From contig CAMYJD010000015.1 in the NCBI GenBank assembly GCA_947258655.1, forward strand, positions 1-52,379: a stretch of DNA of 52,379 nucleotides. Direction: 5' to 3'. The position numbers and the translations under genes were made by a program. Shown here piece after piece: positions 23,119-52,379 of this stretch; position 1 is the stretch's first letter, and each line of letters starts with the position of its first letter. The stretch comes from an uncultured Gammaproteobacteria bacterium. GTDB lineage: Bacteria > Pseudomonadota > Gammaproteobacteria > JAADHQ01. Below the pieces are notes generated by a model that worked only from the letters and a program-made list of their open reading frames with translations, did not search any database and had not been told where the DNA came from.

Positions 23119-24087
23119 ATGAGATCCTATACACAGCTTACCCAGGACCAAAGATACCAGATTTATATATTAATGAAAGCCAGCCATACACAATCTGACA
23201 TAGCCGACTTGATCGGGGTTGATAAATCCACGATCAGTCGAGAACTTCGCCGTAATAGTGGCCTGAGAGGCTATCGCCCCCAACAAGCGCACCGGCTTTG
23301 CCTCGAAAGGCGTAGTCATAAGGCTGTACCCCGAATAGAACAGTCCATCTGGGCACTGGTCGAACGCCTGATCCGCGAAGAATGGAGCCCTGAGCAGGTC
23401 AGTGGGTGGCTACAATCTGAATACCAATATTCCATCAGTAACGAATGGATTTACCAATATCTCCTGACAGACAAACAAAATGGCGGCACCCTGTATAAGC
23501 ATCTACGCTGCCAGAAGCGGCGTAAGAAGCGCTATGGCACCTATTCCTACCGGGGCCAGATACCTGATCAGGTTTCCATTGAGCAACGCCCTGCCATCGT
23601 CGATGCCCGTACACGCTACGGTGACTGGGAGCTGGATACCGTTATTGGCAAAAACCATCAGCAAGCTCTCGTTACGTTAGTGGAACGGAAGTCTCGCCTG
23701 ACATTGATCGCTAAGGTGATCCGCAAAACAGCTGAGAACGTATCCGATGCCATTGTCAGCCTGCTGTCAACGCTAAAGCCTTGGGTCCATACACTAACCG
23801 CTGACAACGGAAGAGAGTTTGCCTGGCACACTGACATCGCAAAGAATCTATAAGCCAAATTCTACTTCGCGCACCCTTATGCTTCCTGGGAACGTGGCCT
23901 CAATGAAAATACCAATGGCCTGATACGACAATACTTCCCGAAGAAACATGATTTTACCACCATCACCCAGAAGCAAATCGACCGGGTAATGGATAAATTA
24001 AATAACCGCCCTCGAAAATGCCTTGGATTTAAAACGCCTAATGAGGTATTTTTCGGAATTAAACCAACTGTTGCACTAGCAACTTGA
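23119..24087 (+). pseudogene. IS30-family DDE transposase with internal stop
   Basis: The frame from ATG 23119 runs 244 codons to a TAA at 23851-23853 and then continues in the same frame to TGA at 24085-24087, 322 codons in all. The N-terminus has the IS30 helix-turn-helix (SDIADLIGVDKSTISRELRR). The catalytic core shows the first Asp in GDWELDTVIGK and the second in LTADNGREFA; the third, Glu of ASWERGLNENTNGL, lies after the stop. The truncated product would lack the catalytic Glu, so this copy should be inactive unless the stop is read through. The simplest explanation is one point mutation, for example GAA to TAA. Confidence 0.9.
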
Positions 24088-31883: not shown

Positions 31884-32861
31884 TTACCAGTCGTAACTCT
31901 CACCTATTAATTTATATAATTTCTCATTGTATGGGCGGAAATAATCGTCTAAATATTTATAGATCTCGGGGTCGATCTTGCTTCTGTTGCTTGATACATT
32001 AAGTGGTTTTAAATCTTTAATGTGATATCCACTATCAACCCCAACAAATTCAAAAACACGTTTGAGAGTATCCAGTGGTTCACTAAAGAATTTTTCACAA
32101 TTAAGAATCAATATCTGCTCTCGTGGAAAATACTTGAGATATCTTTCAATCTGCTCATGATATACTCCACGCTTCTTGTAGGAGTAATGTCCAAACATAT
32201 TATTCTTGTAATCCTTGTTCTTCAGGATAGGGTCCAATCGACTCTCTTCTGCTTGAAGAGCTTCAAGTACAGGTAGGGTTTCCATTGGGCCGCGCTCTTC
32301 ATGAAAATAGTGAGATAGAGCTCGTTCTGTAGGATTCCTCAATATCGCTATTAGCTTAACCTGCGGGACCATCTCACGAATTCGTTTTGGTGCGAGAGGA
32401 TGAAATAAATAAAGAGGCGACGCTTCAAGTGTTTTTCCGTTTACGCCTAGTTTTCTTTTTAATGGAAAATGGGCGCGATACCACGCGGGTCCCTTGCTGT
32501 AACTATCTGCTTCTTGTTGAAGCCCGCCATCAAAAAAATGTATTTCCTTATGATAACCGGGGAAGATTTGTGGATGTTGGGCCATGTAGTTATATAAACT
32601 GGTGGTTCCGGCCTTTTGAGCCCCTAAAATAAGGATATGAGGTGGTGATCGCCATGGCCAGACAAGCTGTCGAGAACGTATGACAATGCTCCGTAAAAAT
32701 TCCTTCATCCAGCCGGGTAAACTGTGCTTTAAGCCTGGGTACTTTTGCTTTACTTTATTTTCTAGGGTGGCCAAGGAGAATTCCGGTTTAGTTCGATCTT
32801 CATTGATTATCGTATGATAATCAATGAAGATTTTAATTAAGATTACCATATATCCTGCCAC
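31884..32861 (-). CDS. Sulfotransferase (heparan-sulfate-type Sulfotransfer_1)
   Basis: The 325-residue protein carries ILILGAQKAGTTSLYNYMA (residues 76-94), the 5'-phosphosulfate loop with the Lys used by heparan and glycan sulfotransferases. It is followed by HPQIFPGYHKEIHFFD and the 3'-phosphate motif AILRNPTERALSHYFHE. The later YLKYFPREQILILNCEKFFSEP and the C-terminal KLYKLIGESYDW are typical of this glycan-specific branch. Starts at 32861 and 32849 are possible. It belongs to the minus-strand sulfotransferase run and is the member most like known glycosaminoglycan sulfotransferases. Confidence 0.88.
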   Translation of the reverse strand: MAGYMVILIKIFIDYHTIINEDRTKPEFSLATLENKVKQKYPGLKHSLPGWMKEFLRSIVIRSRQLVWPWRSPPHILILGAQKAGTTSLYNYMAQHPQIFPGYHKEIHFFDGGLQQEADSYSKGPAWYRAHFPLKRKLGVNGKTLEASPLYLFHPLAPKRIREMVPQVKLIAILRNPTERALSHYFHEERGPMETLPVLEALQAEESRLDPILKNKDYKNNMFGHYSYKKRGVYHEQIERYLKYFPREQILILNCEKFFSEPLDTLKRVFEFVGVDSGYHIKDLKPLNVSSNRSKIDPEIYKYLDDYFRPYNEKLYKLIGESYDW

Positions 32862-33127
32862 GTATTTATTGTGATTACAAGATCTGAATGATCTCTAGAA
32901 AAGAACATAGCCTGCATCATTCCTAAGCAAGACACGCGGGCCAAGCACCCTGAACTCACCAATTGTTTATTCGGATTTGTTTACTCTATGATTCTTTGTT
33001 CATGGGTGAGCTAGTCAGATGATATGATTTTTTCATATCTTCAGTTTCACTGTGCATCTATAAGCATTCACAGTGCGCGATATGTATTACATCATGAATA
33101 ACGGCGGGAAGTACAGAATCTAGCGTA

Positions 33128-34144
33128 TCAATAACGATTCATTTTATTCTGGATCAATGAATCTTTGATGCGCTTGTACAATACAAGTATGTATTTCGGA
33201 CCATACATCTTGAATTCCTGTATAGTGGAATTTATCTTGTCGCGCAAAAGCCAGAGGGTAAGCTTTGTACGAGTTGGATTGACGCTACCATTAGGATTGG
33301 CAACATTGTAGCCCAAGCTGTGAAGCGTTATGCCGGCTATATCCTCCAGGCGGGTTGCTTCTGCAGCGGAAAAGTATTCGGCCCATTTACCACTATTTTT
33401 GACAATTTGCTTGGATTCTGCTTCTCCCTTGTTATCCATGAAAGGCATGGATGAGACAAGTACTTTGGGGTCGAAAGGTAGATCCAGAAAATCACAGATA
33501 GCAGCCAGGCTTGCCTCTGGTTCATTCGTAACCTGTTCATAGGCTACCTCGAAATAATGATTGTCAGGCAATCCAGCCGCTTCGGCTCGCGCAGCTTCGA
33601 TGGTTCGTCGCCATCTATATATGGTGCGCTCCGGTTTTAGTCGCCAACGCCGGTGCATTGACTGCGCGACATCTCTACCATCGCGGTATATATGGATGAA
33701 TTTTGCTTGCGGGAAGACTGTTGAAAGGGTTCTCATGTGCTGGATATACATAGGTGTCTTGTCGCACCACCTGGTCTTCCCCTGGGGCTGAGAGAAGTAG
33801 CGGTAGATGCCATCAATAACACTCGCGAGTCCGTAACCCGTAAGAAATTCGTCGGGGAGTTCTACTTTTTTACCGTCATTAATCGCCCAATATGCTTTGT
33901 GCTGAACTATGGCATTTGCCAAGCTCTGCCGATTTTCCAAATATTGTAAATCGCCGAAGCGACTCGCCTCCTTGATGTAATACGGTAACACATAGGTTTC
34001 GTGGGGCAGCATGTACAGATCGGGATGATGCCCCAAGCAATCGGCAAGCATTGTGGTGCCAGAGCCATTCATGCCCACGACGAAGACAGGTTTGTATTCG
34101 TTTGAATCTGACATTGGAAGACTTGCCTCTTGTTTGGTCATCAA
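33128..34144 (-). CDS. Sulfotransferase (Sulfotransfer_3-type)
   Basis: The 338-residue product has VFVVGMNGSGTTMLADCLGH (residues 20-39) followed by HPDLYMLPHETYVLPYY, and WCDKTPMYIQHM with the conserved K-TP segment. The 3'-phosphate motif is HIYRDGRDVAQSMHRRW. This set is standard for PF13469-like bacterial sulfotransferases. The C-terminal 60 residues are basic and may bind membrane or polyanion. It is separated from its neighbours by 266 and 837 bases, the longer spacer being IS30-like debris. Confidence 0.88.
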   Translation of the reverse strand: MMTKQEASLPMSDSNEYKPVFVVGMNGSGTTMLADCLGHHPDLYMLPHETYVLPYYIKEASRFGDLQYLENRQSLANAIVQHKAYWAINDGKKVELPDEFLTGYGLASVIDGIYRYFSQPQGKTRWCDKTPMYIQHMRTLSTVFPQAKFIHIYRDGRDVAQSMHRRWRLKPERTIYRWRRTIEAARAEAAGLPDNHYFEVAYEQVTNEPEASLAAICDFLDLPFDPKVLVSSMPFMDNKGEAESKQIVKNSGKWAEYFSAAEATRLEDIAGITLHSLGYNVANPNGSVNPTRTKLTLWLLRDKINSTIQEFKMYGPKYILVLYKRIKDSLIQNKMNRY

Positions 34145-34289
34145 TGAAATGTTCTGTCTGTGAAATGATATGTTGATAGGATAGCGTGCATAAATATGTC
34201 AGGTATATCACCAGGATTAATTCCAGGTTTGTCCATTGTTGTAATGGAAAAGCAAATTGTTTTACTCGATATCTGTAACATGATTTAGC
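34145..34289. other. Spacer upstream of a minus-strand sulfotransferase
   Basis: No gene is supported; the promoter for 33128-34144 should be here. The rest of the 837-base gap is treated as candidate IS30 debris. Confidence 0.4.
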
Positions 34290-34950
34290 AGACCTGTTTG
34301 CTTACTGGGTCTTTTTCTAGGCGCTTTTGAATTAAACTGTATCAAAAATGGTCGTATCCACCCCTGGTCAACATAAGACAGGATTCTCCTTATGCACTCT
34401 CGCTATAGACCGTTTTCGTAACGATACCCGATAAAAGCCGAGTTTGCTCTGACTAGCATGCTATTCACTAAGGATTCAATTAGAGTATTATTATAGGCGC
34501 ACTTTTCCTTGTTGATCAATGGGTAATACATGGAAAAGATCATGCTTGTCGCGACATTACCGAGGATAAAATATTATAGTCCAGTCCGGTCGATCCGTAT
34601 ACCCTTTTCTCAGCATAATATTTCAGCTGTTAACGGAGCCATTAAAAGAATTCGACCCGGCTGTCTCAGGTCGGTAGTAGTCGGGTGCATGGTAATGTCC
34701 AGCGGATGAAATATGCCGGTCTTGCGCAGGCAGGACTATAATCGAGCAGGTAAACGGGTAACGTACACTAACATAGAAACAGGTCTGCCTATGCTGGTTG
34801 TTATTCCGCTCAAGGTGTTGACTGCGATACCAGTCACCTGTCTGCATTTTATGAGAAAACTCTGCTGTTGAGAGTCATTGATCTTTTGGTGGAAACATGA
34901 TGTCTGTCTGATGTAAAGTCAGCGTCGTTTCAAATGATCAATAACTTTCC
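34290..34950 (-). mobile_element. Candidate decayed IS30-family copy
   Basis: Minus-strand alignment by eye to the IS30 copy gives ordered matches. TTCTAGGCGCTTTTGAAT near 34315 parallels the complement of the codons for TPNEVFF. TGGTCGTATCCACCCCTGG near 34350 parallels the complement of NGLIRQY and is shared with the relic at 16470. ATGGTAATGTCC...GATGAAATATGCCGGT near 34690 parallels the NEWIYQY region. Frames and terminal repeats are lost. Similarity is lower than for the other relics. Confidence 0.45.
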
Positions 34951-34981
34951 TCTTAGGTGGTGATAAAAAATCGCAGTAAAT

Positions 34982-35968
34982 TTAATCGTTATAGTTTTTT
35001 ATCTTATATTTAATTCTAAGATCAGATATTATGTCACGCAGTTTTTTTGTTTCCAGCTTGCGTTTTATTTCTGTAAGCAGGTATTTCATTTTCCATAATA
35101 TCGTTATCCTGGCAGGTTGTTGTGAGACTGGTAAGTAATTGTAGAAATTCATCTCGTCCCAGCAGGCAGATTCTATGTGGGAAAGCTTGAGTGCTGGTGT
35201 TGACTTCCATGCTTCAAGTCTGTCGCGATCAAATTCCTTACTCTGCTTGACATGAAGTTTTTCCAGATTCTCTGACAATGCATGCTGAGATTTTGCTCTT
35301 TGACTTTTTTGTAGCATCAGTGGGTTGAATTCCACGCCCAAGTATGCGCATAAGCTCTTCGTTGTCTCTTCAGGCTTATTTACCAGATCTTCGAATGTAA
35401 TTGTCATATTGTTTTCGTGTTTTAATTTTTCAAATGAGAATCTTGCATTGTTGATTTTTGTACGCCATAGCTTTGCTGCGCGATATGCGGTCATAGGTCC
35501 CCAGTCGGTTTTCTCCCAGGATAATGCTACAGGCCGTGGATCTCTTACAATATTTATAAATTTTGCATTCGGAAACAGACTAGCCAGATCATCAACCTGA
35601 TCGGTATATCTCGGATTCTTGTCACCCCATATTATTTTACCGAGATTACTGCATCGATCGCTATAGGCTTTCGAAACCAGGTCGCTGAAAGATTTGTTAC
35701 CTGTCCGCGCCTTGTTCCTCATGTATTCATAATACTTTTCCTTTTCTGAAATCATTTCACGACGATACAGTTTCTCGATTAAGGCATCCAGGCCCTGGTT
35801 GTCATATATCCATTTAAGAGGGTAAATGATGCCCTCTTCATATGTAATAAATATATCAGGATGTGCATTAAGGATGTTTTGCAACAATGTTGTACCGGAC
35901 CGATCGCAGCCTAGAATGAACACACATGACGCCTGTTTGTCGCCTGTATATCCTGATGGTGTTGACAT
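34982..35968 (-). CDS. Sulfotransferase (Sulfotransfer_3-type)
   Basis: The 328-residue protein has VFILGCDRSGTTLLQNILNA (residues 16-35), HPDIFITYEEGIIYPL, the WGDKNPRYTDQV segment and the 3'-phosphate motif NIVRDPRPVALSWEKTDWG. A basic C-terminus (KRKLETKKLRD...KYKIKNYND) resembles that of the neighbour at 33128, which suggests the two are related or act at the membrane. It is the outermost of the minus-strand sulfotransferases; a 1.7 kb spacer separates it from the beta-helix genes. Confidence 0.88.
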   Translation of the reverse strand: MSTPSGYTGDKQASCVFILGCDRSGTTLLQNILNAHPDIFITYEEGIIYPLKWIYDNQGLDALIEKLYRREMISEKEKYYEYMRNKARTGNKSFSDLVSKAYSDRCSNLGKIIWGDKNPRYTDQVDDLASLFPNAKFINIVRDPRPVALSWEKTDWGPMTAYRAAKLWRTKINNARFSFEKLKHENNMTITFEDLVNKPEETTKSLCAYLGVEFNPLMLQKSQRAKSQHALSENLEKLHVKQSKEFDRDRLEAWKSTPALKLSHIESACWDEMNFYNYLPVSQQPARITILWKMKYLLTEIKRKLETKKLRDIISDLRIKYKIKNYND

Positions 35969-37697: not shown

Positions 37698-39326
37698 ATG
37701 AAATATTTAAAATTGGCAAGTTTCCTGGTTATCGTGCTACTGGGTAAGAGCGTTCTGGCAGCAACCTATTATGTCAAGCCGGGTGGTAGTGACAGCGCTG
37801 ATGGTAAAAGTCACGCAACTGCCTGGAAGACAATAGGCAAAGTCAATTCTCATTCATTCAAGACCGGAGACGATGTTTATTTCCTTGCCGGTGGTTCGTG
37901 GAAACTGGAAAAACTACAAATCGATTGGAGTGGTACGGCCACTAACCGAGTGATTGTTGGTGCCTATTTCATGAACAACAGTGGCAACGAAACGCCGGGT
38001 GTGCCGTCCGGCACGGGTAAGCCCAGGATCATTGGTTCCTATACCGGAAAATGTCCCGGTACAGTGGTAGGATCATGTATTGATGTAAAAAGTGCCGTAC
38101 CATCCGGGGTCTGGACTGGCTTGGTGGGGATCAGCGGTAATTACGTGACCTTGAGGAATATGCGGGTACAGAATTCAGCCGGCAGGGGAATAGTCGTTAA
38201 TAATGATTATTCCTACGCAATCCTGGAAAACAACGAGGTTTATTATACTGCTGCAAATAGCACTATATTCAACAGGGGCTCGTCACATAATATTTTTCGC
38301 AATAACGATACCAGCTATTGTGCTATGGGATGGAGGCATGGGGATTGGAAAAAAATAGCCAAACACTGGCCTACCTGTAATAGCGCGGTTACCAGCAATT
38401 ACAATATATTTGAGGGCAATTATGTTCACGAGTCCTATGGAGAGGGTATCGTGATGCTGAAGGATGCTCAATATAATATTATTCGGGACAATAAAATAGT
38501 GGCGGTGCGTTCTGCTAATATCTATCTTGATAATTCCTCAAATAATATTGTTGAAAATAATATCATGGTAGGCGACAGGGATGGCGAATTTACACATGGC
38601 AAGGCTGCTGACGGGCATAAATATGGCGGAGGGCTTACAATCAGGGTCGAGGGTTATAACAATGCGACTGATGCTGTAAATAATATTGTCAGAAATAACC
38701 TATTGGTTAGAAGTGGTGGCATAGTCATGTCTATATTTGAAAACGCCAAAGTGCAGGGTCGAAAAGTTGGTGGAAAAATCTTCAATAACACTTTAATTGA
38801 AACCAGGAAGTATCTGGCACTAAATGAAGGTAGCGAATTTTATGGGCCTACCGAAATAGCAAATAATATATTTTTTGGCGCCCCTCTGGCTGATGGAGCA
38901 TGTACTATAACTCCAACAGGAATAAACGTGCATCATAATCACTGGAGTCACGTTCAGAAAAATGCCAAATGCAACGATGGCTCTGGTGATATTGTTGGCA
39001 ATCCAAAATTATCGCGTACAGACTGGAAGGCCGTTGGTGTAGGCAAAATACCCAAGCCCAATGACTTCAAGCCAAAAGCAGATTCATCTGTAATCGGTCA
39101 AGCGAGCAAACAGACTGCACAGGTGTTTACAAAAGGCTTTTCCCATTCAGTTAATCTGACTGGAAACTGTACACTGGATTTGACAGAAGTTTCGCAGGAT
39201 TTTTTCTGTGGCTCACGTATTGCCCAAAATGACATGGGGGCTATCAATGTCAATTCCGTAAGTGCCACTAGTAATGTGGTGCCACCTGTCGGGCTTTCAA
39301 TGACTATTATTACATCTACTAATTAA
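37698..39326 (+). CDS. Secreted right-handed parallel beta-helix protein (pectate-lyase-like)
   Basis: The 542-residue protein has a signal peptide ending ...SVLA before ATYYVKPGGSDSADG, the usual N-terminal cap of bacterial right-handed beta-helix proteins. Regular coil repeats follow: VTLRNMRVQNSAGRGIVV, AILENNEVYYTAANS, NIFRNNDTSYC, NIFEGNYVHES, NIIRDNKIVAV, NIVENNIMVG, NIVRNNLLVR. The Asn ladder is typical of polysaccharide lyases, hydrolases and epimerases of the PbH1 class. The Shine-Dalgarno AGAGG precedes the ATG. It may cleave or modify the locus glycan outside the cell; catalytic residues are not assignable by eye. A paralogue lies 934 bases downstream. Confidence 0.85.
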   Translation: MKYLKLASFLVIVLLGKSVLAATYYVKPGGSDSADGKSHATAWKTIGKVNSHSFKTGDDVYFLAGGSWKLEKLQIDWSGTATNRVIVGAYFMNNSGNETPGVPSGTGKPRIIGSYTGKCPGTVVGSCIDVKSAVPSGVWTGLVGISGNYVTLRNMRVQNSAGRGIVVNNDYSYAILENNEVYYTAANSTIFNRGSSHNIFRNNDTSYCAMGWRHGDWKKIAKHWPTCNSAVTSNYNIFEGNYVHESYGEGIVMLKDAQYNIIRDNKIVAVRSANIYLDNSSNNIVENNIMVGDRDGEFTHGKAADGHKYGGGLTIRVEGYNNATDAVNNIVRNNLLVRSGGIVMSIFENAKVQGRKVGGKIFNNTLIETRKYLALNEGSEFYGPTEIANNIFFGAPLADGACTITPTGINVHHNHWSHVQKNAKCNDGSGDIVGNPKLSRTDWKAVGVGKIPKPNDFKPKADSSVIGQASKQTAQVFTKGFSHSVNLTGNCTLDLTEVSQDFFCGSRIAQNDMGAINVNSVSATSNVVPPVGLSMTIITSTN

Positions 39327-40260: not shown

Positions 40261-41832
40261 ATGTGCCTGATATTGAAATATTTTAAATTGGTAAGTTTCC
40301 TGGTCATTACGCTATTGAGTAAGAACATTCTGGCAACTAGCTATTATGTAAAGCCGGACGGAAATGACGGCGCTGATGGTAAGAGTCACGCAGCGGCCTG
40401 GAAGACAATAGGCAAAGTCAATGCTCATGCGTTTAAGACCGGGGACGATGTTTATTTCCTTGCCGGTGGTTCATGGAAACTGGAAAGACTGGTGATCGAC
40501 TGGAGTGGTGCGGCGACTAATCGAGTGATCGTCGGCGCCTATTATATGTTTAATGGTCAGGAGACTCCAGGTGTGCCGTCCGGGACGGGCAAGCCCAGAA
40601 TCATTGGTTCCTATACTGGGAAATGTCCCGGAGAAATAGGTTCATGCATTGATACAAGCACTGCGGTACCGGCTGGGGTTTGGACCGGTCTGGTTGGGAT
40701 CAGCGGTAATTACGTGACCTTGAGGAATATGCGGGTGCAGAATTCAGCCGGCAGGGGAATAGTCGTTAATAATGATTATTCCTACGCAATCCTGGAAAAC
40801 AATGAGGTTTATTATACTGCAGCAAACAGCACCTTATTCAACAGGGGCTCATCACATAATATTTTACGCAATAACGACACCAGCTATTGTGCCATGGGGT
40901 GGAAGCACGGAGATTGGAAAAAAATAGCCAATCACTGGCCTACTTGTAATAGTGCGGTCAGGAGCAATTATAATATATTTGAGGGTAATTATGTTCACGA
41001 ATCCTATGGAGAAGGTATCGTGATGTTGAAGGATGCTCAATATAATATTATTCGAGGCAATAAAATAGTGGCGGTGCGTTCTGCTAATATCTATCTTGAT
41101 AATTCCTCAAATAATATAGTTGAAAACAATATCCTGATAGGCGACAGGGATGGCGAATTTACGCATGGTCGATCCAGGGCTGATGGGCATAGATATGGTG
41201 GAGGTATAGCGGTAAGAGTCGAGGGCTATAAAAGGACATCTGATGCAGTAAATAACGTTGTCAGGAATAATATATTGGTAAGAACAGGGCCCTGTTTATC
41301 GATGGGGCTAATTAAAAAGGCGAAGAAATCGAAAAGTAAGATTGGAGTTAAATTTATCCATAATACTTGCGTGGAGCCAAGGTCATATATCAGTTTGCTA
41401 TCGAAATCCCGCGCTTATGCAAATACTCTGATAGCCAATAATATATTTGTTGGGAGTCCACAAGGAGAAACTTCTTGTAAGATCAGGCCTAACGCTAATG
41501 TTTTATTGGTTCATAACCATTGGAGTGAAAAGCAAATTGACAAGCGCTGTAAGGAAGAAGTGGGTGGAATAATAGGGGATCCCAAGTTGTCTAGAGTTGA
41601 TTGGGCGAATGTTGGAATACGCTTTATTCCCGACATCGGTGACTTTGTCCTGGGCCCAGGATCCAGTGCGCATAAAGCCGGAAAGAATATTCAAGATAAT
41701 ACGTATAATGGCCAGTTTCTTCAGGCAGGTCAATTAGTGACTAAATGTGGTAATAGTCATCCAGGTGGATCATACGACTTTACATGTAGGCAGCGCTCTA
41801 ATCCTCCGGATATCGGAGCAATCAGTAAATAG
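40261..41832 (+). CDS. Secreted right-handed parallel beta-helix protein, paralogue of the one at 37698
   Basis: The 523-residue protein shares the signal peptide (KYFKLVSFLVITLLSKNILA), the N-terminal cap SYYVKPDGNDGADGKSHAAA and the Asn-ladder coils of the upstream copy. The central third (about residues 150-300) is almost identical to the paralogue, even at DNA level; the C-terminal third is clearly different. The first copy's ATG corresponds to a TTG at 40273 here, so the true start may be that TTG rather than the ATG at 40261. The protein ends with C...DFTCRQRSNPPDIGAIS, a typical C-terminal cap. Likely exported and glycan-active. Confidence 0.83.
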   Translation: MCLILKYFKLVSFLVITLLSKNILATSYYVKPDGNDGADGKSHAAAWKTIGKVNAHAFKTGDDVYFLAGGSWKLERLVIDWSGAATNRVIVGAYYMFNGQETPGVPSGTGKPRIIGSYTGKCPGEIGSCIDTSTAVPAGVWTGLVGISGNYVTLRNMRVQNSAGRGIVVNNDYSYAILENNEVYYTAANSTLFNRGSSHNILRNNDTSYCAMGWKHGDWKKIANHWPTCNSAVRSNYNIFEGNYVHESYGEGIVMLKDAQYNIIRGNKIVAVRSANIYLDNSSNNIVENNILIGDRDGEFTHGRSRADGHRYGGGIAVRVEGYKRTSDAVNNVVRNNILVRTGPCLSMGLIKKAKKSKSKIGVKFIHNTCVEPRSYISLLSKSRAYANTLIANNIFVGSPQGETSCKIRPNANVLLVHNHWSEKQIDKRCKEEVGGIIGDPKLSRVDWANVGIRFIPDIGDFVLGPGSSAHKAGKNIQDNTYNGQFLQAGQLVTKCGNSHPGGSYDFTCRQRSNPPDIGAISK

Positions 41833-43905: not shown

Positions 43906-46900
43906 TTAAATTGTACCGCATACAGCTTCCGACAGACTGGAGTTCTGGTTGTCCTTGTATGCCTGTATCTTGAAGCAAACCTGCTCGCCTGGATAGTAGT
44001 TGAGATCGCTCGTTGCAGCATATTTCAGCTCTGGTGCTGTTGGATCAATTAGTCCCGAATTCACTGTCACATCGGAAATCTTTTCGGTAGCGTTGGCTGC
44101 ATCGGGACCATAATATATCCTGTATCCGGAAATGGCCTGTGCATTTGGCAACCATTTTAGAACAATTACTTTTTCCTTGGTGCAACTATTGCAGGTTACA
44201 ATAACGGTTACTGATGAGTAAAATACGGAGCCATTGGTATCTACAAAACTGTAGATAATCGTTTCCTGGCCCTTGTAGTCCGCATTTGGCGTGTATAGAA
44301 TATTGTCATTATTAATCTCTACAGAGCCATTTGCAGGTGCGGAAACAATAGATAGTGTGCCAGATCCGCTATTGGTTTCAGGGGCCTTGATGCTTGCCAG
44401 GGCGCCATCAGTAGTCGAAATAGATGTCTGGTTTGCCATTGGTATGACTTCTATTGCAGATATTTTTGGGCTTTTAGTGTTTCTGGGGAAACGGATATTG
44501 ATTTGTTGATCGCTGACAGTAGTGATAACTGTTTTTGTCATCGCAGTATATCTGCCTACTTCGCTGACAATATCGAGGTTGTCAATCGCCAGTTGCCCTT
44601 CAACTTCTACATCAAAGATTCGGCTGACCGAGTCTGTGATTTCAGCAAAATGCAGAATAACAGCATAATCACCCGAGGGGACATTGAAGCTATACTCCAG
44701 TTCGGGCGATGCAGAATTCTGCAAATCATTATGCCAACGTTCACTCTGATACAGAGTGTCATCCAGAGTTCCGCTGATGGAATCTATTTTTGTCGAAGAT
44801 CCGCCCAGATTATAGCCATAATCAGCAGCCCACAGCTGTCCCTTGGAGTCTGCATACTCTCCACCACCTGCATTGACGCGTATCACAGGCCCATTGTCTG
44901 CCTTGACGACAATAGTGAAGCTCTGGCTTGCTGACAGTGCCGGTGAGCCGTTATCTGTGACATGGATGCTGACATCCTGGCTGCCGACCTGTGCAGCAGT
45001 AGGTGTCCAGCTGATGGTGCCATTCACTGTATTAATGGACATACCAGCCGGCGCTGCTGTTAGTTCATAGCTTAACGTATCACCCGCATTGGGATCGGTT
45101 GCATTGACATCGTAAGCGTACGCAATGTCTTCCTGGGCTGTGAGCCCGGGATTTGAAGTAATTACCGGGGCATTATTGGCCGCTGTGACTGTGATTGTGA
45201 AGCCCTGGTTGGCAGACAGTGCCGGTGAGCCATTATCTGTGACCCGGATGCTGACGTCCTGGCTGCCGACCTGTGCAGAAGTGGGCGTCCAGCTTATGAC
45301 GCCGTTGGTTGCATTGATCACCATGCCCGCAGGGGCTGTAGTTAACTCATAGCTCAGAATATTACCCGCATTAACGTCGGTTGCGTTTACATCATAGCTA
45401 TACGCAGCGCCTTCTTTAGCGGTCTGGATTGCCTGGCTTGTAATAACCGGAGCTGAATTGCCCGGGGTGGTACTATTTGCAGTCACCGCGATTGTGAAAA
45501 CCTGACTTGCCGAGAGGGCCGGTGTGCCGTTATCTGTGACGCGAACGCTGACATCCTGGTTACCTGTCTGCGCGGCTGTAGGAGTCCAGCTGATCATGCC
45601 GCTCGCTGCATCAATGGTCATGCCTGCAGGTGAGCTTGTCAATTCATAGCTTAAAACATCATTCGTATCGGTGTCGGAAGCATTGACATCATAACTGTAT
45701 GCAATACCCTCCACGGCAGTGAGGACCGGATTCGATGTAATTGTTGGTGCGTTATTGGCCGCACTAACGGCGATCGAGAATCCTTGGCTGGAAGATAGTG
45801 TGAGTGAACTACTGTCGGTAACACGCACCATAACATCAAGGGTACCAACCTGTGAGGCAGTGGGTGTCCAACTAATTATGCCGCTTGTTGCGTCGATTGT
45901 CATGCCTGTAGGTGCCGTAGTCAGTTCATAGGTTAAAATATCGCCTGCATTGGCATCGGTAGCATCAACATCGTAACTGTAAGCAGTGCCTACCCGGGCA
46001 GTCAGAGGAGCGTTGCTAGTAATCACGGGTGCGACAGGGGCAGAGCTGTGGTTATCATCGTTTATTTTTGCCAAATTCGATGTAGATGTCAGAGGTACTG
46101 CATTGATTGTTGAATCCAGTATGTCTTCTGCATTCTTTGGTAATGCAGAGTCAATATCTGCAGTAGTAGATGTTTTTGAAATGACTGCGATTGCGTTTTC
46201 CAGAGCTGTAAGTTCATCGCTCGGAGCAAAACGCTGTGCGGCGGATAAGGCTACTCGTGTCTGTATAAGCACTTTATCAGTCAGTGTGACATCGGCTGTT
46301 GTCATACTGGATGATGGCCTTGTTACCAGAATGGCATTATCGAGTTGGACTGTTGCAATGGCATTATTGACCTTGAGTTGATTGCGTAAGACTTCAACAA
46401 GGACCTGTGCTGACGCAATCTTTGCTGTTGCGGAAATTTTACTGTCGGTGTTTGTTCCTGCGCCGTTAAAAACACCGTCAGCAAGATCGTTAGCGAGCGC
46501 AGTGAGCACTGTGTCTCCATCAATATTATTGCCAGCTGTGATCATCGCATCGCGTGTTCGGCGTATCATCTCGCCTAGTGCTTCGCTAGCTTTGACAACT
46601 CCAGCAACATTGGTGTCATTGATGGTGCTGCTGATTGGGTCCGCTATTGATGCTGAATCAAGACCAAAACTGAATTTATCAAGTATGGTTTGTTTTGCGG
46701 CCGCGATATTTTCCGTGGTCAGACCGCTGCCCATTGATTTGCTCATATTAACTATGAGAGTCGAGAAAGGATTAATGTTTGCGGTACGAATTTTTGAGCT
46801 TAAATTAGCCTGCTTAAAAGCTATTGTGGCCATAGTGAAATCAGGGCTCGTTCCGGTAACGATGTCAGTACCACCGGTGGCAGTAATGGTGACCGGAAAG

Positions 46901-47211
46901 GCGGTGTCAGCCGGCACAGAAATCTGATAATTTGCAGTCGTATCACTTTGCGTGGTTCCTATGACTGCATCGTTTGCGTCTTTTATAGTAATTATTGCGC
47001 CAGTGATGGGGCCATCGCCAACACTGCCACTCAGATCAATGACATCTTCGGATGTAGTGCCTATAGCGCTACCGCCGCTGCCACCACCACCGCATCCGCT
47101 AAGTGAGATAATTGCCAATACACATATGATCTGATAAATGTTTCTGATTCCGAAACGAATCAACATATGAGTTGTGTCTAGCATTCCAGGTCGTGTCGCA
47201 GTATGCATCAA
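43906..47211 (-). CDS. Large lipoprotein with four Ig/cadherin-like repeats and a malectin domain
   Basis: The 1101-residue protein has a lipobox LSGC (Cys40) followed by a Gly/Ser linker, so it should be lipid-anchored. Order: a carboxypeptidase-regulatory-like module (about 57-115); an Ala-rich helical region (130-375); four He_PIG-like repeats (about 396-482, 487-577, 588-676, 680-770; each with 'YSYDVNATD...GD.LSYELT.AP.GM...G.ISWTPT..Q.G..DV...VTDN'); a malectin-like carbohydrate-binding domain (774-925, with YADSKGQLWAADYGYN and VILHFAEI); an Ig-like domain (about 930-1005); and a fibronectin-III-like end with CNSC, CFKIQAY and a final Cys. It probably binds glycan at the cell surface. 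Three CRP-like tandem sites lie upstream. Alternative start M16 would still keep the signal. Confidence 0.87.
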   Translation of the reverse strand: MMHTATRPGMLDTTHMLIRFGIRNIYQIICVLAIISLSGCGGGGSGGSAIGTTSEDVIDLSGSVGDGPITGAIITIKDANDAVIGTTQSDTTANYQISVPADTAFPVTITATGGTDIVTGTSPDFTMATIAFKQANLSSKIRTANINPFSTLIVNMSKSMGSGLTTENIAAAKQTILDKFSFGLDSASIADPISSTINDTNVAGVVKASEALGEMIRRTRDAMITAGNNIDGDTVLTALANDLADGVFNGAGTNTDSKISATAKIASAQVLVEVLRNQLKVNNAIATVQLDNAILVTRPSSSMTTADVTLTDKVLIQTRVALSAAQRFAPSDELTALENAIAVISKTSTTADIDSALPKNAEDILDSTINAVPLTSTSNLAKINDDNHSSAPVAPVITSNAPLTARVGTAYSYDVDATDANAGDILTYELTTAPTGMTIDATSGIISWTPTASQVGTLDVMVRVTDSSSLTLSSSQGFSIAVSAANNAPTITSNPVLTAVEGIAYSYDVNASDTDTNDVLSYELTSSPAGMTIDAASGMISWTPTAAQTGNQDVSVRVTDNGTPALSASQVFTIAVTANSTTPGNSAPVITSQAIQTAKEGAAYSYDVNATDVNAGNILSYELTTAPAGMVINATNGVISWTPTSAQVGSQDVSIRVTDNGSPALSANQGFTITVTAANNAPVITSNPGLTAQEDIAYAYDVNATDPNAGDTLSYELTAAPAGMSINTVNGTISWTPTAAQVGSQDVSIHVTDNGSPALSASQSFTIVVKADNGPVIRVNAGGGEYADSKGQLWAADYGYNLGGSSTKIDSISGTLDDTLYQSERWHNDLQNSASPELEYSFNVPSGDYAVILHFAEITDSVSRIFDVEVEGQLAIDNLDIVSEVGRYTAMTKTVITTVSDQQINIRFPRNTKSPKISAIEVIPMANQTSISTTDGALASIKAPETNSGSGTLSIVSAPANGSVEINNDNILYTPNADYKGQETIIYSFVDTNGSVFYSSVTVIVTCNSCTKEKVIVLKWLPNAQAISGYRIYYGPDAANATEKISDVTVNSGLIDPTAPELKYAATSDLNYYPGEQVCFKIQAYKDNQNSSLSEAVCGTI

Positions 47212-47708: not shown

Positions 47709-49142
47709 TTATATTACTCCGCAAATGGGCGCTGACAAATCTGATACCTGCGAGTCTTTATATGCGCTAATTCGAAAGCATACATTGTCGCCCGGATTCA
47801 ATTGAAGGTCATTTTGTGTGGAAAATTCAACATAAGGCAAGTTAGGATCAAGACCCGTTGTTTCTGTAAGGTCAATAAGGAGCTTGTCGACATTATTGGC
47901 ATCACTGCCAGAATAAACAAGATAGCCTATAGCGGTGCCGGTAACGCTGGGATCCCAGCTAAGGCCTATTATTTTATCATTGGTGCATGAGGTGCATGTT
48001 ACATCAACAGTCACTGTGGCGATTGCCATGCTGCCACCAACTGACACCTTGTAAGAGAAGCTGTCTGTGCCTGTATAAGAAGGGTTCGGTGTATAGGTGA
48101 TCGTATTGTTAGCGAGGACGGTAGCGTTGCCATTTGTCGGGCCTCCGTCGATACTAACAATTACAGAAGATGAGATGCCGCCGTCATTTGCAAGTACCGG
48201 GATATTGACAGCCGTATCCTTTTCCGTGCTTGTATTATCAGGGTTGGCAATGAGCGGCCCATTAGGGAGCGTTGAGTCAACATCGACCGTAATGCTGGAT
48301 ATTACAACCGCGCCATTACTGGCAACGTAACTGTAAATGATGGTGTCCTGTCCAGCAAAACCTAAATTTGCGGTATAAGTGATACTGTTGCCGTTGAGGA
48401 TTGCGGTGCCGTTTTCGGGCATGCCGATGATGGAGACTTTTCCTGTGTCAGTGGCGGTCTCGGGAATTGCGATATCGATAGCACTGTCGTCGGTTGTCGA
48501 TGCATTGCTAGTATTCCTGACTTCGAGAATTTCTATAGCAGATACTTTCGGACTTTTAGCATTTCTCGGGAAACGGATATTGATTTCACCATCATTCACG
48601 GTTGTCGATATGTTTTTGCTAAGCGCCGTAAATCTTCCCGCCTCACCGACGATATCGAGGTCATCTATAACCTGCTGGCCTTCAATTTCCACATCAAAGA
48701 CACGGTTAACAGATGTTGTGATTTCTGCGAAATGCAGTATCACGGCATAATTGCCCGAGGAGACATTAAAGCGATATTCCAGCTCAGGCTTTGTTATGTC
48801 CGACCATTCGGAATGATAATGCTCGCTTTGATATAGCGCATCATCAATGGTGCCGTTAATGGCGTCCGTAGTGCTGGATGTGCCAAGTACATTATAACCA
48901 TAGTCGGCAACCCATAGCCGTCCCTGTGAATCCTGATAATCGTTCCCACCGGCATTGATTCTTAATGCGTAGGTACTGGATGTTGTAACACCCGTAGCGG
49001 AATTTGAGGAGCCGCCCCCGCCACAAGCACTTAACATGCCTAGAGCTATAATTAACAAAGGAAAAAGTAGAAATCTTTTGGTTTGCTGTGATGGGTGAAC
49101 GAGATTTAATCTTAAAAACTGATTCCGATACATAAGTCGCAT
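47709..49142 (-). CDS. Malectin-domain lipoprotein
   Basis: The 477-residue protein has a lipobox LSAC (Cys40) and a Gly/Ser linker. Next comes a malectin-like domain (about 57-210: YQDSQGRLWVADYGYN, YAVILHFAEI, INIRFPRNAKSPKVSAIEI), two bacterial Ig-like domains (about 215-290 and 300-385; GFAGQDTIIYSYV, SYTGTDSFSYKV), and a fibronectin-III-like end containing CTSC, CFRISAYKD and a final Cys. Malectin and C-terminal parts closely parallel those of the lipoprotein at 43906, so the two derive from a common module set; this one lacks the four cadherin-like repeats. Probable surface carbohydrate binder. FNR-type and CRP-type sites lie 75-105 bases upstream. Confidence 0.87.
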   Translation of the reverse strand: MRLMYRNQFLRLNLVHPSQQTKRFLLFPLLIIALGMLSACGGGGSSNSATGVTTSSTYALRINAGGNDYQDSQGRLWVADYGYNVLGTSSTTDAINGTIDDALYQSEHYHSEWSDITKPELEYRFNVSSGNYAVILHFAEITTSVNRVFDVEIEGQQVIDDLDIVGEAGRFTALSKNISTTVNDGEINIRFPRNAKSPKVSAIEILEVRNTSNASTTDDSAIDIAIPETATDTGKVSIIGMPENGTAILNGNSITYTANLGFAGQDTIIYSYVASNGAVVISSITVDVDSTLPNGPLIANPDNTSTEKDTAVNIPVLANDGGISSSVIVSIDGGPTNGNATVLANNTITYTPNPSYTGTDSFSYKVSVGGSMAIATVTVDVTCTSCTNDKIIGLSWDPSVTGTAIGYLVYSGSDANNVDKLLIDLTETTGLDPNLPYVEFSTQNDLQLNPGDNVCFRISAYKDSQVSDLSAPICGVI

Positions 49143-49736: not shown

Positions 49737-50015
49737 ATGGCTGAAGCAATGTTGATAAAACGACCAGACCTCAGTGTACGTACAGTTGACCAGGAAATAG
49801 TCATCCTGGATAAAGAGACAGGTGAAGTACATCAACTCAATCAAACGGCCAGTTATATTTGGGACTTATTCGATGGTTATACGACCGTCGAGCAGGTGAA
49901 GGAGTCGCTGGCACGTGATTATGATATTGATTTGGCACAGGCATCAGCAGATGTCGTTGCAGTAGTAGAGCAGTTGAAGCATCTTAATTTGCTCGTCGCA
50001 GAGGCCAATTCCTAA
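49737..50015 (+). CDS. PqqD-family protein of an HPr-rel-A-type system
   Basis: From the ATG at 49737 (Shine-Dalgarno AAGGA at 49721) the product is 92 residues, the usual PqqD-like length. It has the family pattern: RPDLSVRTVDQEIVILDKETGEVHQLNQTASYIWDLFDG, a short three-stranded sheet then helix, followed by TTVEQVKESLARDYDID and a C-terminal helix VVEQLKHLNLL. PqqD-like domains bind leader peptides and present them to modifying enzymes. Here an HprK-related kinase, a small twin-arginine-type protein and a nucleotidyltransferase are neighbours, the composition of the HPr-rel-A set. Target unknown. Confidence 0.88.
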   Translation: MAEAMLIKRPDLSVRTVDQEIVILDKETGEVHQLNQTASYIWDLFDGYTTVEQVKESLARDYDIDLAQASADVVAVVEQLKHLNLLVAEANS

Positions 50016-50444
50016 TACACAAGCCGCTCAGTCCATAACGAGTTTCAGGCGCGATAGCCTGGAAATGTGAACTTGGACACATTCCATTCAATACATGTTA
50101 CCGCTAAATCTATAGTAATCCGTGATTTATAGAGAAATATTGGCAGGATCATATATTGCCACAGTAATACCGCTATAGATGTCTATTCGGTTGGATTCCT
50201 GTGTGGATGTCGGATTTATTTACAACGAATGACCCTGGTCAATATAAATAATTTATATGCTATTGAATATTATGGATAAAATACTTGTGGTATATAAATT
50301 GCTTTTATGTCAACAAATAATTTAATTGCCACCAGGTTTGGGTCAGGGAGCTGATATTAAACGGTCGCACAATGCTGGTTTTGCAACCTGAAGCCGTGGA
50401 ACAGGTATCTGGTTGGCAACAGATTAAAGTAGGATTCAAGCAGT
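50016..50444. other. Spacer between the PqqD-like gene and the small secreted-type protein
   Basis: No gene is supported. A good CRP-type site is at 50063-50084 and listed separately. The remainder is AT-rich. Confidence 0.4.
50063..50084. promoter_or_regulatory. CRP-type operator
   Basis: AAATGTGAACTTGGACACAT matches the CRP consensus arms (AAATGTGA-N6-TCACATTT) closely, with one mismatch in the conserved TGTGA/TCACA half-sites. It lies 48 bases after the PqqD-like stop and about 360 bases before the small-protein start. Confidence 0.45.
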
Positions 50445-50708
50445 ATGAATAAGCATGACAGTTCAAGAAGAAAATTCATCAAGGCCGCTGCATATACGGC
50501 ACCGGTGGTTATGACCTTGAATGCAGCTCCTTCTTTTGCCAAAGGCGGCTCAAACCTGAGCGGAAACATTAACTGTAAAGTTAATAAAAATGAAGAAGTT
50601 AAATGTAAGTCTACAGGTTTTACCAATCCCATGAACATTGACCAGAGTAAGAGGGAAAACGCATTTACTAAATTACTCAAGTCCATACTGAAATTATTTG
50701 GTTTTTAA
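50445..50708 (+). CDS. Small twin-arginine-signal protein, possible target of the PqqD/HprK set
   Basis: The 87-residue protein begins MNKHDSSRRKFIKAAAYTAP, a twin-arginine-type signal (SRRKFIK) with a hydrophobic stretch ending NAAPSFA before KGGSN. The mature part is about 56 residues, basic, with two Cys (NCKVNKNEEVKC), and ends in an amphipathic segment KLLKSILKLFGF. I do not recognise a named function. Placement between a PqqD-like protein and an HprK-related kinase suggests it could be the exported or modified product of this system; this is inference. A decayed relative lies at 50832-51057. Confidence 0.7.
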   Translation: MNKHDSSRRKFIKAAAYTAPVVMTLNAAPSFAKGGSNLSGNINCKVNKNEEVKCKSTGFTNPMNIDQSKRENAFTKLLKSILKLFGF

Positions 50709-50831
50709 TCTCACCTGGATAGAGTCTGGGATTAGTCGGGGATCATCACCTCTCATTGGTTAACGTGCAAATAAGTTTTATATAGAACAATTCAGACCTC
50801 GATCGTTAACTGTCGAATAATTTTACACTAT

Positions 50832-51057
50832 CTACTATAAAATATACGGTTTTGTGTTTATGTTGACCTTGGTGCTGGCCGCAGTCCCTTTTTTTACGAA
50901 AGGCGGTTCCAGCATGAGGCAGAAATGCAATAACGGTATTGGCAACGGCTAGGACTGTCATAACAGGGGTATTCGTAAGAGCATTCACCACAATTACGAC
51001 CAATTATGTGTTCCGGGAACCCTGTTAAATCGCTATAAGAAAGGAAGGAAAAAGTAG
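50832..51057 (+). pseudogene. Decayed relative of the small twin-arginine protein
   Basis: After a likely frameshift near 50860 the frame reads MLTLVLAAVPFFTKGGSS, closely parallel to VMTLNAAPSFAKGGSN of the intact neighbour. It then reads MRQKCNNGIGNG, an in-frame TAG at 50950-50952, and DCHNRGIRKSIHHNYDQ... to TAG at 51055-51057. Upstream, KYTVLCLC in another frame parallels AAYTAPVVM. No start codon or arginine pair survives. The 'CNNGxGNG' stretch recalls a motif in small secreted proteins of similar loci, from memory. It may be a broken gene or a sequencing artefact. Confidence 0.55.
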
Positions 51058-51291
51058 TAAAGCGGTGAAAATCATGCAGCAAAGAATGCGTATGATTTAG
51101 CATGATCCACACGACTCCTTTTGGTTCGGGTAATCCCTGTGCGCTTGTATGGTGTTTTATCGGCGTTAGTTTATTAAGGTACTGAAAAACCTTGCTGATT
51201 TGTATAAACTGGTCTGGTGCCAGACCCGGTTTTCTATTTATACTGCGCCAGTGCCATGCGCTATTCTTCTATAAGTAAAATATAAAAGGCG
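51058..51291. other. Leader of the HprK-related kinase gene
   Basis: No gene or clear site is recognised in these 234 bases. Confidence 0.35.
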
Positions 51292-52140
51292 ATGTTGTTG
51301 TCTGTTTTCTGGTTATCTATTTTTGATCGAAAAATACGCGTTCAGTGCGACGTGACGGAATTGCGGACATTGCTTCTGGGGGTATATGGCGGCCTGTTAC
51401 AGGCGCAGGTAGATGATCAGTGGCAGCCGGACCTGGACTACAGGATATATCATGACAATGATCCCGATCGGAAAATCTGTATGCATCGCCTCGGGCAGAA
51501 TGTTCAATATGCTGAAGATGATGGATTGTTTTTGTATTTGTTCGAGAAAGACATGACTGTCGCGTTGGAGCGAATACGCCAGGACCTGTACTTCCTTCAT
51601 GCGGCAGCACTCGAATACAGAGGGAGAATCCATTTACTGGTAGCAGAGTCCGGCGGTGGAAAATCAACTACCTGTTGGGCATTACTGCACCACGGTTTTC
51701 ATTATGCCAGTGACGAATTGGCACCAGTCGAACTGGGTACAATGTTGGTTCAGCCCTATCCGCATGCGCTGTGTCTGAAAACCGAGCCACCCCTGCCGTA
51801 CAGAATACCGGAAGAGGTCATATATACGTCACGGACCTTGCATGTCCCTGTTGAGGTTTTGCCATCCATGGTGGTCGACAGATTTGTCGCTCTGCAGTCG
51901 ATATTGTTTGTACGTTACAATCCAGCTGTACAATCGCCATCTATGCAGTCGGTCAGTACGGCCCAGGCAGCTGCCCGGGTATATGCAAATGGGCTGAATC
52001 AGTTGGCCCATCCCGGCGATGGTCTGGATGCTGCATTGCAGATAGCCCAGCACTGTAAATGTTATGCATTGGAAAGCACAGATCTGAAAGCGACCTGTCA
52101 ATTGGTTCAAGACACACTCGATAAGGATTTGAATATTTAA
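51292..52140 (+). CDS. HprK-related kinase A
   Basis: The 282-residue protein resembles the C-terminal kinase domain of HPr kinase without its N-terminal half. The P-loop is in LLVAESGGGKSTTCWALLHH (GGGKST at residues 121-126), followed by HYASDELAPVE with the conserved Asp. N-terminal residues up to about 100 (YRIYHDND...FLYLFEKDMTVALERIRQDLYFLHAAAL) fit the family. Such proteins lack a partner PTS and occur with PqqD-like proteins and an NTP_transf_5 nucleotidyltransferase. They probably phosphorylate a non-HPr target, unknown here. It ends 13 bases from the stop of a convergent gene. Confidence 0.87.
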   Translation: MLLSVFWLSIFDRKIRVQCDVTELRTLLLGVYGGLLQAQVDDQWQPDLDYRIYHDNDPDRKICMHRLGQNVQYAEDDGLFLYLFEKDMTVALERIRQDLYFLHAAALEYRGRIHLLVAESGGGKSTTCWALLHHGFHYASDELAPVELGTMLVQPYPHALCLKTEPPLPYRIPEEVIYTSRTLHVPVEVLPSMVVDRFVALQSILFVRYNPAVQSPSMQSVSTAQAAARVYANGLNQLAHPGDGLDAALQIAQHCKCYALESTDLKATCQLVQDTLDKDLNI

Positions 52141-52153
52141 ATCGGCGAACATG

Positions 52154-52379
52154 TCATTTGATAATCAGCTTCTTCAAAAATCTTGCTGTGCAGAAAAACA
52201 GCTTGCGCACGGGTGTGATTATGTAATAAACGAAATTTAAGTATGCAGGCAAATGAAAACGAAGCATATCTACTTCAGTCGGCCTCACCAGGGTGTGCAG
52301 GATGTATTTGAAACGGTCAGTATTACTGTCACAGATTGACAGAATGAATGGTTGTATTCTTAGACACTGCAGGTAAGTT
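52154..52379 (-). CDS. Nucleotidyltransferase-family protein (NTP_transf_5-like), only the C-terminus
   Basis: A minus-strand frame is open from the window edge (52379) to TGA at 52154-52156, 74 residues. It reads ...DSNTDRFKYILHTLVRPTEVD, then RFHLPAYLNFVYYIITPVRK and a basic end. This matches the C-terminal pattern ('DR..Y...TL..PT..D...LP..L..LYY...P.R') of the uncharacterised nucleotidyltransferase family that accompanies HPr-rel-A genes. It is convergent with the kinase gene, whereas such sets are often co-directional. The start and active site lie outside the window. Confidence 0.65.
   Translation of the reverse strand, partial: TYLQCLRIQPFILSICDSNTDRFKYILHTLVRPTEVDMLRFHLPAYLNFVYYIITPVRKLFFCTARFLKKLIIK

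Follow-up and report, generated by a model that had tools for sequence, protein, structure and literature searches.

A gene set for a predicted LPP-like, Tat-exported phosphopeptide in an uncultured gammaproteobacterium

Our analysis suggests that a gene set at one end of the window (the whole stretch of DNA analysed, 52,379 bp, which is the entire contig C15 of a 3.48-Mb genome in 92 contigs) encodes a small RiPP-like phosphopeptide system, an analogue of the LPPs exported by Tat, in which one N-terminal segment of the peptide would be Tat export signal and enzyme leader at once. We put the probability of this reading at roughly 0.7. The four-gene set probably adds a phosphate to one fixed Ser of the small peptide. 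HPr-rel-A-like enzyme sets would thereby gain a definite candidate substrate, and in this branch also a candidate modified residue; the LPP idea (2026, Bacillota) would be extended to Gram-negative bacteria. If true, it would be a RiPP-type pathway with a twin-arginine signal as enzyme leader. We did not find an earlier description of an HPr-rel-A substrate or of Tat leaders in RiPPs in a literature search limited to open-licence papers, which is weak evidence of absence.

Layout of the gene set

The region 49737-52379 holds, from left to right, a PqqD-type RRE, an RR peptide, a decayed copy of such a peptide, an HprK-like kinase and the 3' end of an NTP_transf_5 gene:

49737..50015, + strand: PqqD-family RiPP recognition element (RRE), 92 aa (PF05402 at 65.6 bits, cut-off 23.4; AF2 model; lasso RRE folds)
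50445..50708, + strand: precursor peptide, 87 aa: predicted twin-arginine signal (SRRKFIK) with YTAPVV inside it, followed by KGGS, whose Ser36 is invariant, and by a variable tail
50544..50552, + strand: Gly-Gly-Ser codons (GGCGGCTCA), the Ser being residue 36 and the proposed phosphorylation site (Gly-Ser invariance in the family; position compared with LppA S3, PMC13381572)
50833..50949, + strand: decayed precursor copy, RR start gone, in-frame stop after GNG (kin of an intact orphan peptide on contig C4)
51292..52140, + strand: HprK-like kinase, 282 aa, catalytic H103/K124/D141/E142
52155..52379, - strand: C-terminal 74 aa of NTP_transf_5, convergent with the kinase and running on into contig C10 (exact 99-bp overlap)

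These parts had been named in a sequence-only reading of the same DNA, and profiles, fold models and the contig overlap bear them out. Homologues favour the PqqD start at 49737 over a longer ORF from 49608. The end of the window and the start of contig C10 overlap by 99 identical bases, and C10 carries the remainder of the NTP_transf_5 gene, so that the gene is whole and convergent with the kinase; its homologue from the same genus scores 193 bits against PF14907, and with the contig join this gives the set the NTP transferase expected of an LPP system. The ORFs beyond it on C10 have a housekeeping-like appearance. TatC is encoded by the host genome (242 bits).

The set stands at the end of a glycosyltransferase/sulfotransferase locus, and the sequence-only reading had proposed a link to polysaccharide production; as a family property this did not hold up, since most relatives have no polysaccharide genes nearby (judged by eye), though a link particular to this genome may exist. 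The polysaccharide locus includes three sulfotransferase-family genes at 31884-35968 (PF00685/PF13469 confirmed; further sulfotransferase-like ORFs occur in the window) and a transposase-like, possibly truncated ORF at 23119-23853 (HTH_38 and a weak rve match). Also in the window are tandem near-duplicate secreted right-handed beta-helix proteins (37698-39326 and 40261-41832; PF13229) and, on the - strand, two related proteins (43906-47211 and 47709-49142) that resemble lipoproteins, carry malectin and Ig/cadherin-like domains and are possibly carbohydrate-binding surface proteins.

The peptide family accompanies the kinase subfamily

We searched one set of 369 genomes from the class with two profiles, A3 for the kinase subfamily (threshold >180 bits) and A2 for the peptides. 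The peptide family appeared in 10 of the 12 genomes with the kinase subfamily versus 2 of the 357 others (Fisher p about 4e-16). One of the two kinase-less peptide genomes (G353) has NTP_transf_5, PqqD and peptide at the very end of a contig, which breaks off at the place expected for the kinase; two genomes, G197 and G172, have a partial kinase match, and the peptide was not found in them. A scan of named genomes yielded 14 kinase loci, including MAGs labelled Gammaproteobacteria, Rokubacteria and Deltaproteobacteria as well as two Thiocapsa, and 12 of these loci carry a local peptide in one to three copies, mostly between PqqD and kinase. One of the remaining two (L043) is cut by a contig end, and a Rokubacteria locus (L047) has no peptide nearby. 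As the peptide family and this kinase subfamily are neighbours in many unrelated genomes, the arrangement is not due to chance, and the locus is a real, conserved set. The sequence-only reading had named a lack of such co-occurrence as a ground against its proposal that the PqqD/kinase set handles the small RR protein as its peptide; on this check the proposal holds.

Family peptides also occur away from the kinase in six kinase-bearing genomes (G000, G039, G103, G287, G318 and G360). Downstream of the set in one Thiocapsa (L054:7060-11805) we saw an asparagine synthase (PF00733 confirmed) together with acyl carrier protein-like and AMP ligase-like ORFs.

A fixed Gly-Ser behind a predicted twin-arginine signal

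The window peptide starts MNKHDSSRRKFIKAAAYTAPVVMTLNAAPSFAKGGS. All 35 distinct family peptides share the RR core (RRxF/V) and the Gly-Ser, while YxxP, and a Ser before the RR, are found in most. The Gly falls exactly at Tyr+18 in 29 of the 35 (one of these with Phe for the Tyr of YxxP), the spacing being 19 in four peptides and 22 in one, with one peptide having no Tyr; the invariant Ser is at Tyr+19 in the window peptide and in the usual family register. Three-residue insertions before the Tyr leave the Tyr-to-GS spacing unchanged, which indicates that GS is positioned relative to YxxP and not to RR. The tail past GS varies from 6 to 124 residues (median 32), is rich in Gly, Asn, Lys, Ser and Arg and is not alignable as a whole, leaving GS as the sole conserved post-signal feature among family peptides. 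By a simple AxA rule, the Ser would be residue 2-5 of the predicted mature peptide in 27 of the 35.

As a control, we looked at 48 other RR-type ORFs from the same 0.95 Mb: YxxP was present in ten, all of which are radical SAM branch peptides (see below), and GS at this place in three only. This bears on the idea that the small protein is an ordinary, unrelated Tat substrate while kinase and PqqD act elsewhere, for example on a polysaccharide enzyme. Glycosyltransferases and sulfotransferases are indeed abundant in the window, and small Tat proteins do occur elsewhere, such as the formate dehydrogenase region target, but the rarity of YxxP and GS among other RR ORFs, the genome-wide and local co-occurrence, and the Tyr-Asp match described below make this idea very improbable.

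With the TAT signal model TIGR01409, the window peptide scored 12.5 bits, just under the cut-off of 16.7, and 12 of 19 relatives matched at some level (best E 4e-4). This score, together with members that have no clear AxA site just before GS, would suit a peptide whose RR segment is an enzyme leader only and which stays in the membrane or leaves by a non-Tat route. We regard such a peptide as unlikely, given that the RR is invariant and mostly preceded by Ser, that the genome has TatC, and that the ORF lists show no exporter gene beside the set.

The decayed copy (50833-50943) matches an intact paralogue at G000:C4:92126-92410, with tblastn E 2e-9 against a 575-bp target ('FTKGGSSMRQKCNNGIGNG*'); the match is significant at the protein level, while BLASTN between the two gave chance matches only. 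The decayed relative had been put forward as a further candidate substrate; it turns out to be pseudogene-like kin of a peptide elsewhere in the genome and not a second working substrate. That C4 peptide (L024:8127-8411), an intact orphan family member with no kinase nearby, belongs to the same genome as the window, and a CapA-like PGA_cap protein (PF09587) follows it. Its tail and those of the L127, L123, L119, L028 and L034 peptides have a CNNGxGNGxxCxPPGHxxN-like stretch in common, of which the decayed window copy retains a remnant, QKCNNGIGNG.

PqqD and the Tyr-Asp match

The AF2 model of the window PqqD (pLDDT 91) has the beta/alpha order of RREs, and its best PDB folds are the lasso RREs TbiB1 and TfuB1, both solved with leaders bound; profile searches likewise matched TfuB1, TbiB1 and 9x90/9x8z. 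It is thus a discrete RRE of the kind found in LPP systems. YxxPx[VIL] is the published motif bound by lasso and LPP RREs (PMC13381572), and in crystal structures Asp70 of LppB hydrogen-bonds the leader Tyr (Popov et al. 2026, PMC13381572). Asp72 of the window PqqD aligns with this residue.

Across 41 loci with both peptide and PqqD, the position of LppB Asp70 holds Asp in 23/23 with a leader Tyr and in 0/18 without, a split that partly reflects kinship and for which the classical PqqD alignment is uncertain. Three loci stand outside this confounding by kinship. Two of them belong to the window's own kinase subfamily and have Phe (L046) or Val (L044) for the Tyr, and there the Asp is replaced by Glu and Ala, respectively; the third (L132) groups with the classical loci and has both the leader Tyr and the PqqD Asp. 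The table thus points, indirectly but specifically, to PqqD binding the Tat signal segment. Four further loci (L134, L136, L140 and L133) have PqqD and kinase, with NTP_transf_5 in three, and carry the Tyr-binding Asp in PqqD; we did not find an RR peptide at these loci, and their substrate may be of another kind.

The kinase

The best structural counterparts of the kinase model (pLDDT 94) are PEP carboxykinases and HPr kinases, which predicts a PEPCK/HprK fold. The catalytic His, Lys and Asp are invariant in 62/62 kinase sequences of three clades, and with a single exception the second acid is Glu, so that fold and residues are those of an HprK-like kinase with the catalytic residues of a peptide kinase. 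Lasso kinases differ at one point, their second catalytic acid being reported as Asp. A relation to HPr-rel-A kinases had been suggested from the sequence; this stands as a weak match to TIGR04352 (71.9 bits, cut-off 200), whereas the kinase and PqqD (19.6 bits against 35 for TIGR04353) both stay under the curated cut-offs, and in a kinase tree of three groups the window kinase clade is separate from HPr-rel-A with support 0.998.

The fold superfamily shared with HprK would also allow an HPr(Ser) kinase paralogue acting on HPr, with the peptide incidental. This is hardly credible, as a separate, full-scoring true HprK is encoded on contig C26, and the HprK-type kinases of paeninodin and of the LPPs act on peptides (PMC9266682, PMC13381572). 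We therefore rejected HPr kinase as the identity of the window kinase.

Sister branches of the enzyme set

RR-leader proteins occur at most of the classical HPr-rel-A loci sampled: about 26/33 have one, mostly of 160-260 aa, together with PqqD, kinase and NTP_transf_5, of which 18 were found by an automatic rule (regular expression) and eight by reading loci or by profile match (L029, L030, L032, L033, L132, L137, L138 and L142). Most of these proteins carry C[ST]xS[GA]xxSGN[LV]S, or a close form, just past the signal. In another class of the phylum, loci of one family (L171-L180) combine the set with a radical SAM/SPASM protein (PF04055, PF13186), a hallmark of RiPP maturation. There the RR-leader peptide is roughly 130 aa long, often Cys-rich, with YxPP and with GSCxPxACxPC or NACCPC motifs.

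The presence of RR-leader proteins in these sister branches suggests that RR-leader substrates are a general property of the PqqD/kinase/NTP_transf_5 trio. Somewhat more tentatively than the reading of the window set, though still with odds slightly in its favour, we propose that in a broad group of Pseudomonadota and Rokubacteria peptide systems, so far unrecognised, the Tat signal is itself the RRE leader. The group would have three branches (short GS peptides; HPr-rel-A proteins of 160-260 aa; Cys-rich peptides with radical SAM), and PqqD would act as a proofreading chaperone, keeping the peptide from Tat export until it has been phosphorylated and fully tailored.

Proposed mechanism

In the window set, the 87-aa precursor would be made in the cytosol, where PqqD would bind its YxxPxV, which lies within the hydrophobic core of the RR signal, and thereby hold the peptide back. 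The HprK-like kinase would then phosphorylate, perhaps repeatedly, the Ser of the invariant Gly-Ser at Tyr+19, and the NTP_transf_5 protein may put a further group on that phosphate, much as PsmN is reported to add hexose to the phosphate in pseudomycoidin (PMC9266682). LppN had no detectable effect in the test host of the LPP study (PMC13381572), and the NTP_transf_5 step is accordingly the weak one. The modified peptide would finally be released to the Tat translocase and signal peptidase would cut off the signal, giving a short peptide, typically of 10-60 aa, with a modified Ser near its N terminus. With Tat export and removal of the signal by signal peptidase, no dedicated peptidase or exporter would be needed.

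Some features sit awkwardly with this model. The YxxP segment would be bound in extended form by the RRE, yet the same segment is later needed as the Tat h-region. In addition, the Ser register is one residue off that of LppA (19 versus 18), and 6 of the 35 peptides have another spacing or no Tyr.

The peptide could also be the substrate of a different chemistry, with NTP_transf_5 nucleotidylating or glycosylating the Ser directly, or with the kinase acting on the tail; GS would then mark a site of cleavage or anchoring. Most kinase loci also have NTP_transf_5, Gly, Asn, Lys and Ser abound in the tails, and PsmN-type chemistry is not settled (PMC9266682). On the other hand, GS, the one conserved feature past the signal, is located where LppA is phosphorylated (PMC13381572), and HprK-like kinases in such an arrangement are known Ser kinases (PMC9266682). 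We consider this chemistry improbable, if a little less so than retention or export without Tat, and prefer phosphorylation at the fixed Ser.

Comparison with known systems

The closest counterpart is the LPP system, which consists of the RRE LppB, the HprK-like kinase LppK, the NTP transferase LppN, the SipW-like peptidase LppS and the exporter LppD, and has been described as restricted to Bacillota (Popov et al. 2026, PMC13381572). Its leader reads YxxPxVLxHQxIxFETxxS, and LppK phosphorylates core Ser3, 18 residues past the Tyr (PMC13381572). The window set resembles it in having a discrete RRE, an HprK-like kinase, an NTP transferase and a YxxPx[V] leader, with no macrolactam cyclase evident near the genes, and both have a conserved Ser 18-19 residues past the Tyr and one to three precursors with a constant N terminus and a variable tail. 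LPP loci are often polysaccharide loci, as is the window, whereas most relatives found are not. In the leader, YxxPxV is present, but the Ser is at +19 instead of +18 and HQxIxFET is absent from the window peptide. LPPs use a SipW-like peptidase and an MsbA-like exporter, neither gene being evident next to the window set when ORFs from 43 kb to the contig end and in the first 20 kb of C10 were read by eye, and the leader of the window peptide is a twin-arginine signal.

HPr-rel-A shares the combination of PqqD, HprK-like kinase and NTP_transf_5, and differs in its separate kinase clade and in its partner protein, which is mostly 160-260 aa, usually has a C[ST]xS[GA]xxSGNxS-type motif and no leader Tyr; its genes are usually co-directional. 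With both curated cut-offs missed, we rejected membership. The lasso peptides paeninodin and pseudomycoidin (PadeK/PsmK, PsmN) also combine an RRE, an HprK-like Ser kinase and a nucleotidyltransferase-like partner, but in the window peptide the Ser is near the mature N terminus and not C-terminal, and no lasso genes were seen at the locus. We rejected a lasso peptide, as the genome has zero matches to the B2 leader peptidase (PF13471). The SynChlorMet cassette (ScmC kinase-like, ScmD PqqD, ScmE/F radical SAM) likewise pairs PqqD with an HprK-like protein and resembles the radical SAM branch, while the window set has no adjacent radical SAM gene and scores far under the cassette cut-offs. The formate dehydrogenase region Tat target (TIGR02811) is another very small Tat-signal protein; the example at L182 adjoins a formate dehydrogenase subunit-like ORF and has neither YxxP nor GS nor a PqqD/kinase partner, and with the signal alone in common we rejected it as a relative. 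Since the window set would work much as LPPs do, yet falls outside the strict definitions of both LPPs and HPr-rel-A, we regard it as a variant: an RRE-guided, probably phosphorylated peptide with a twin-arginine leader.
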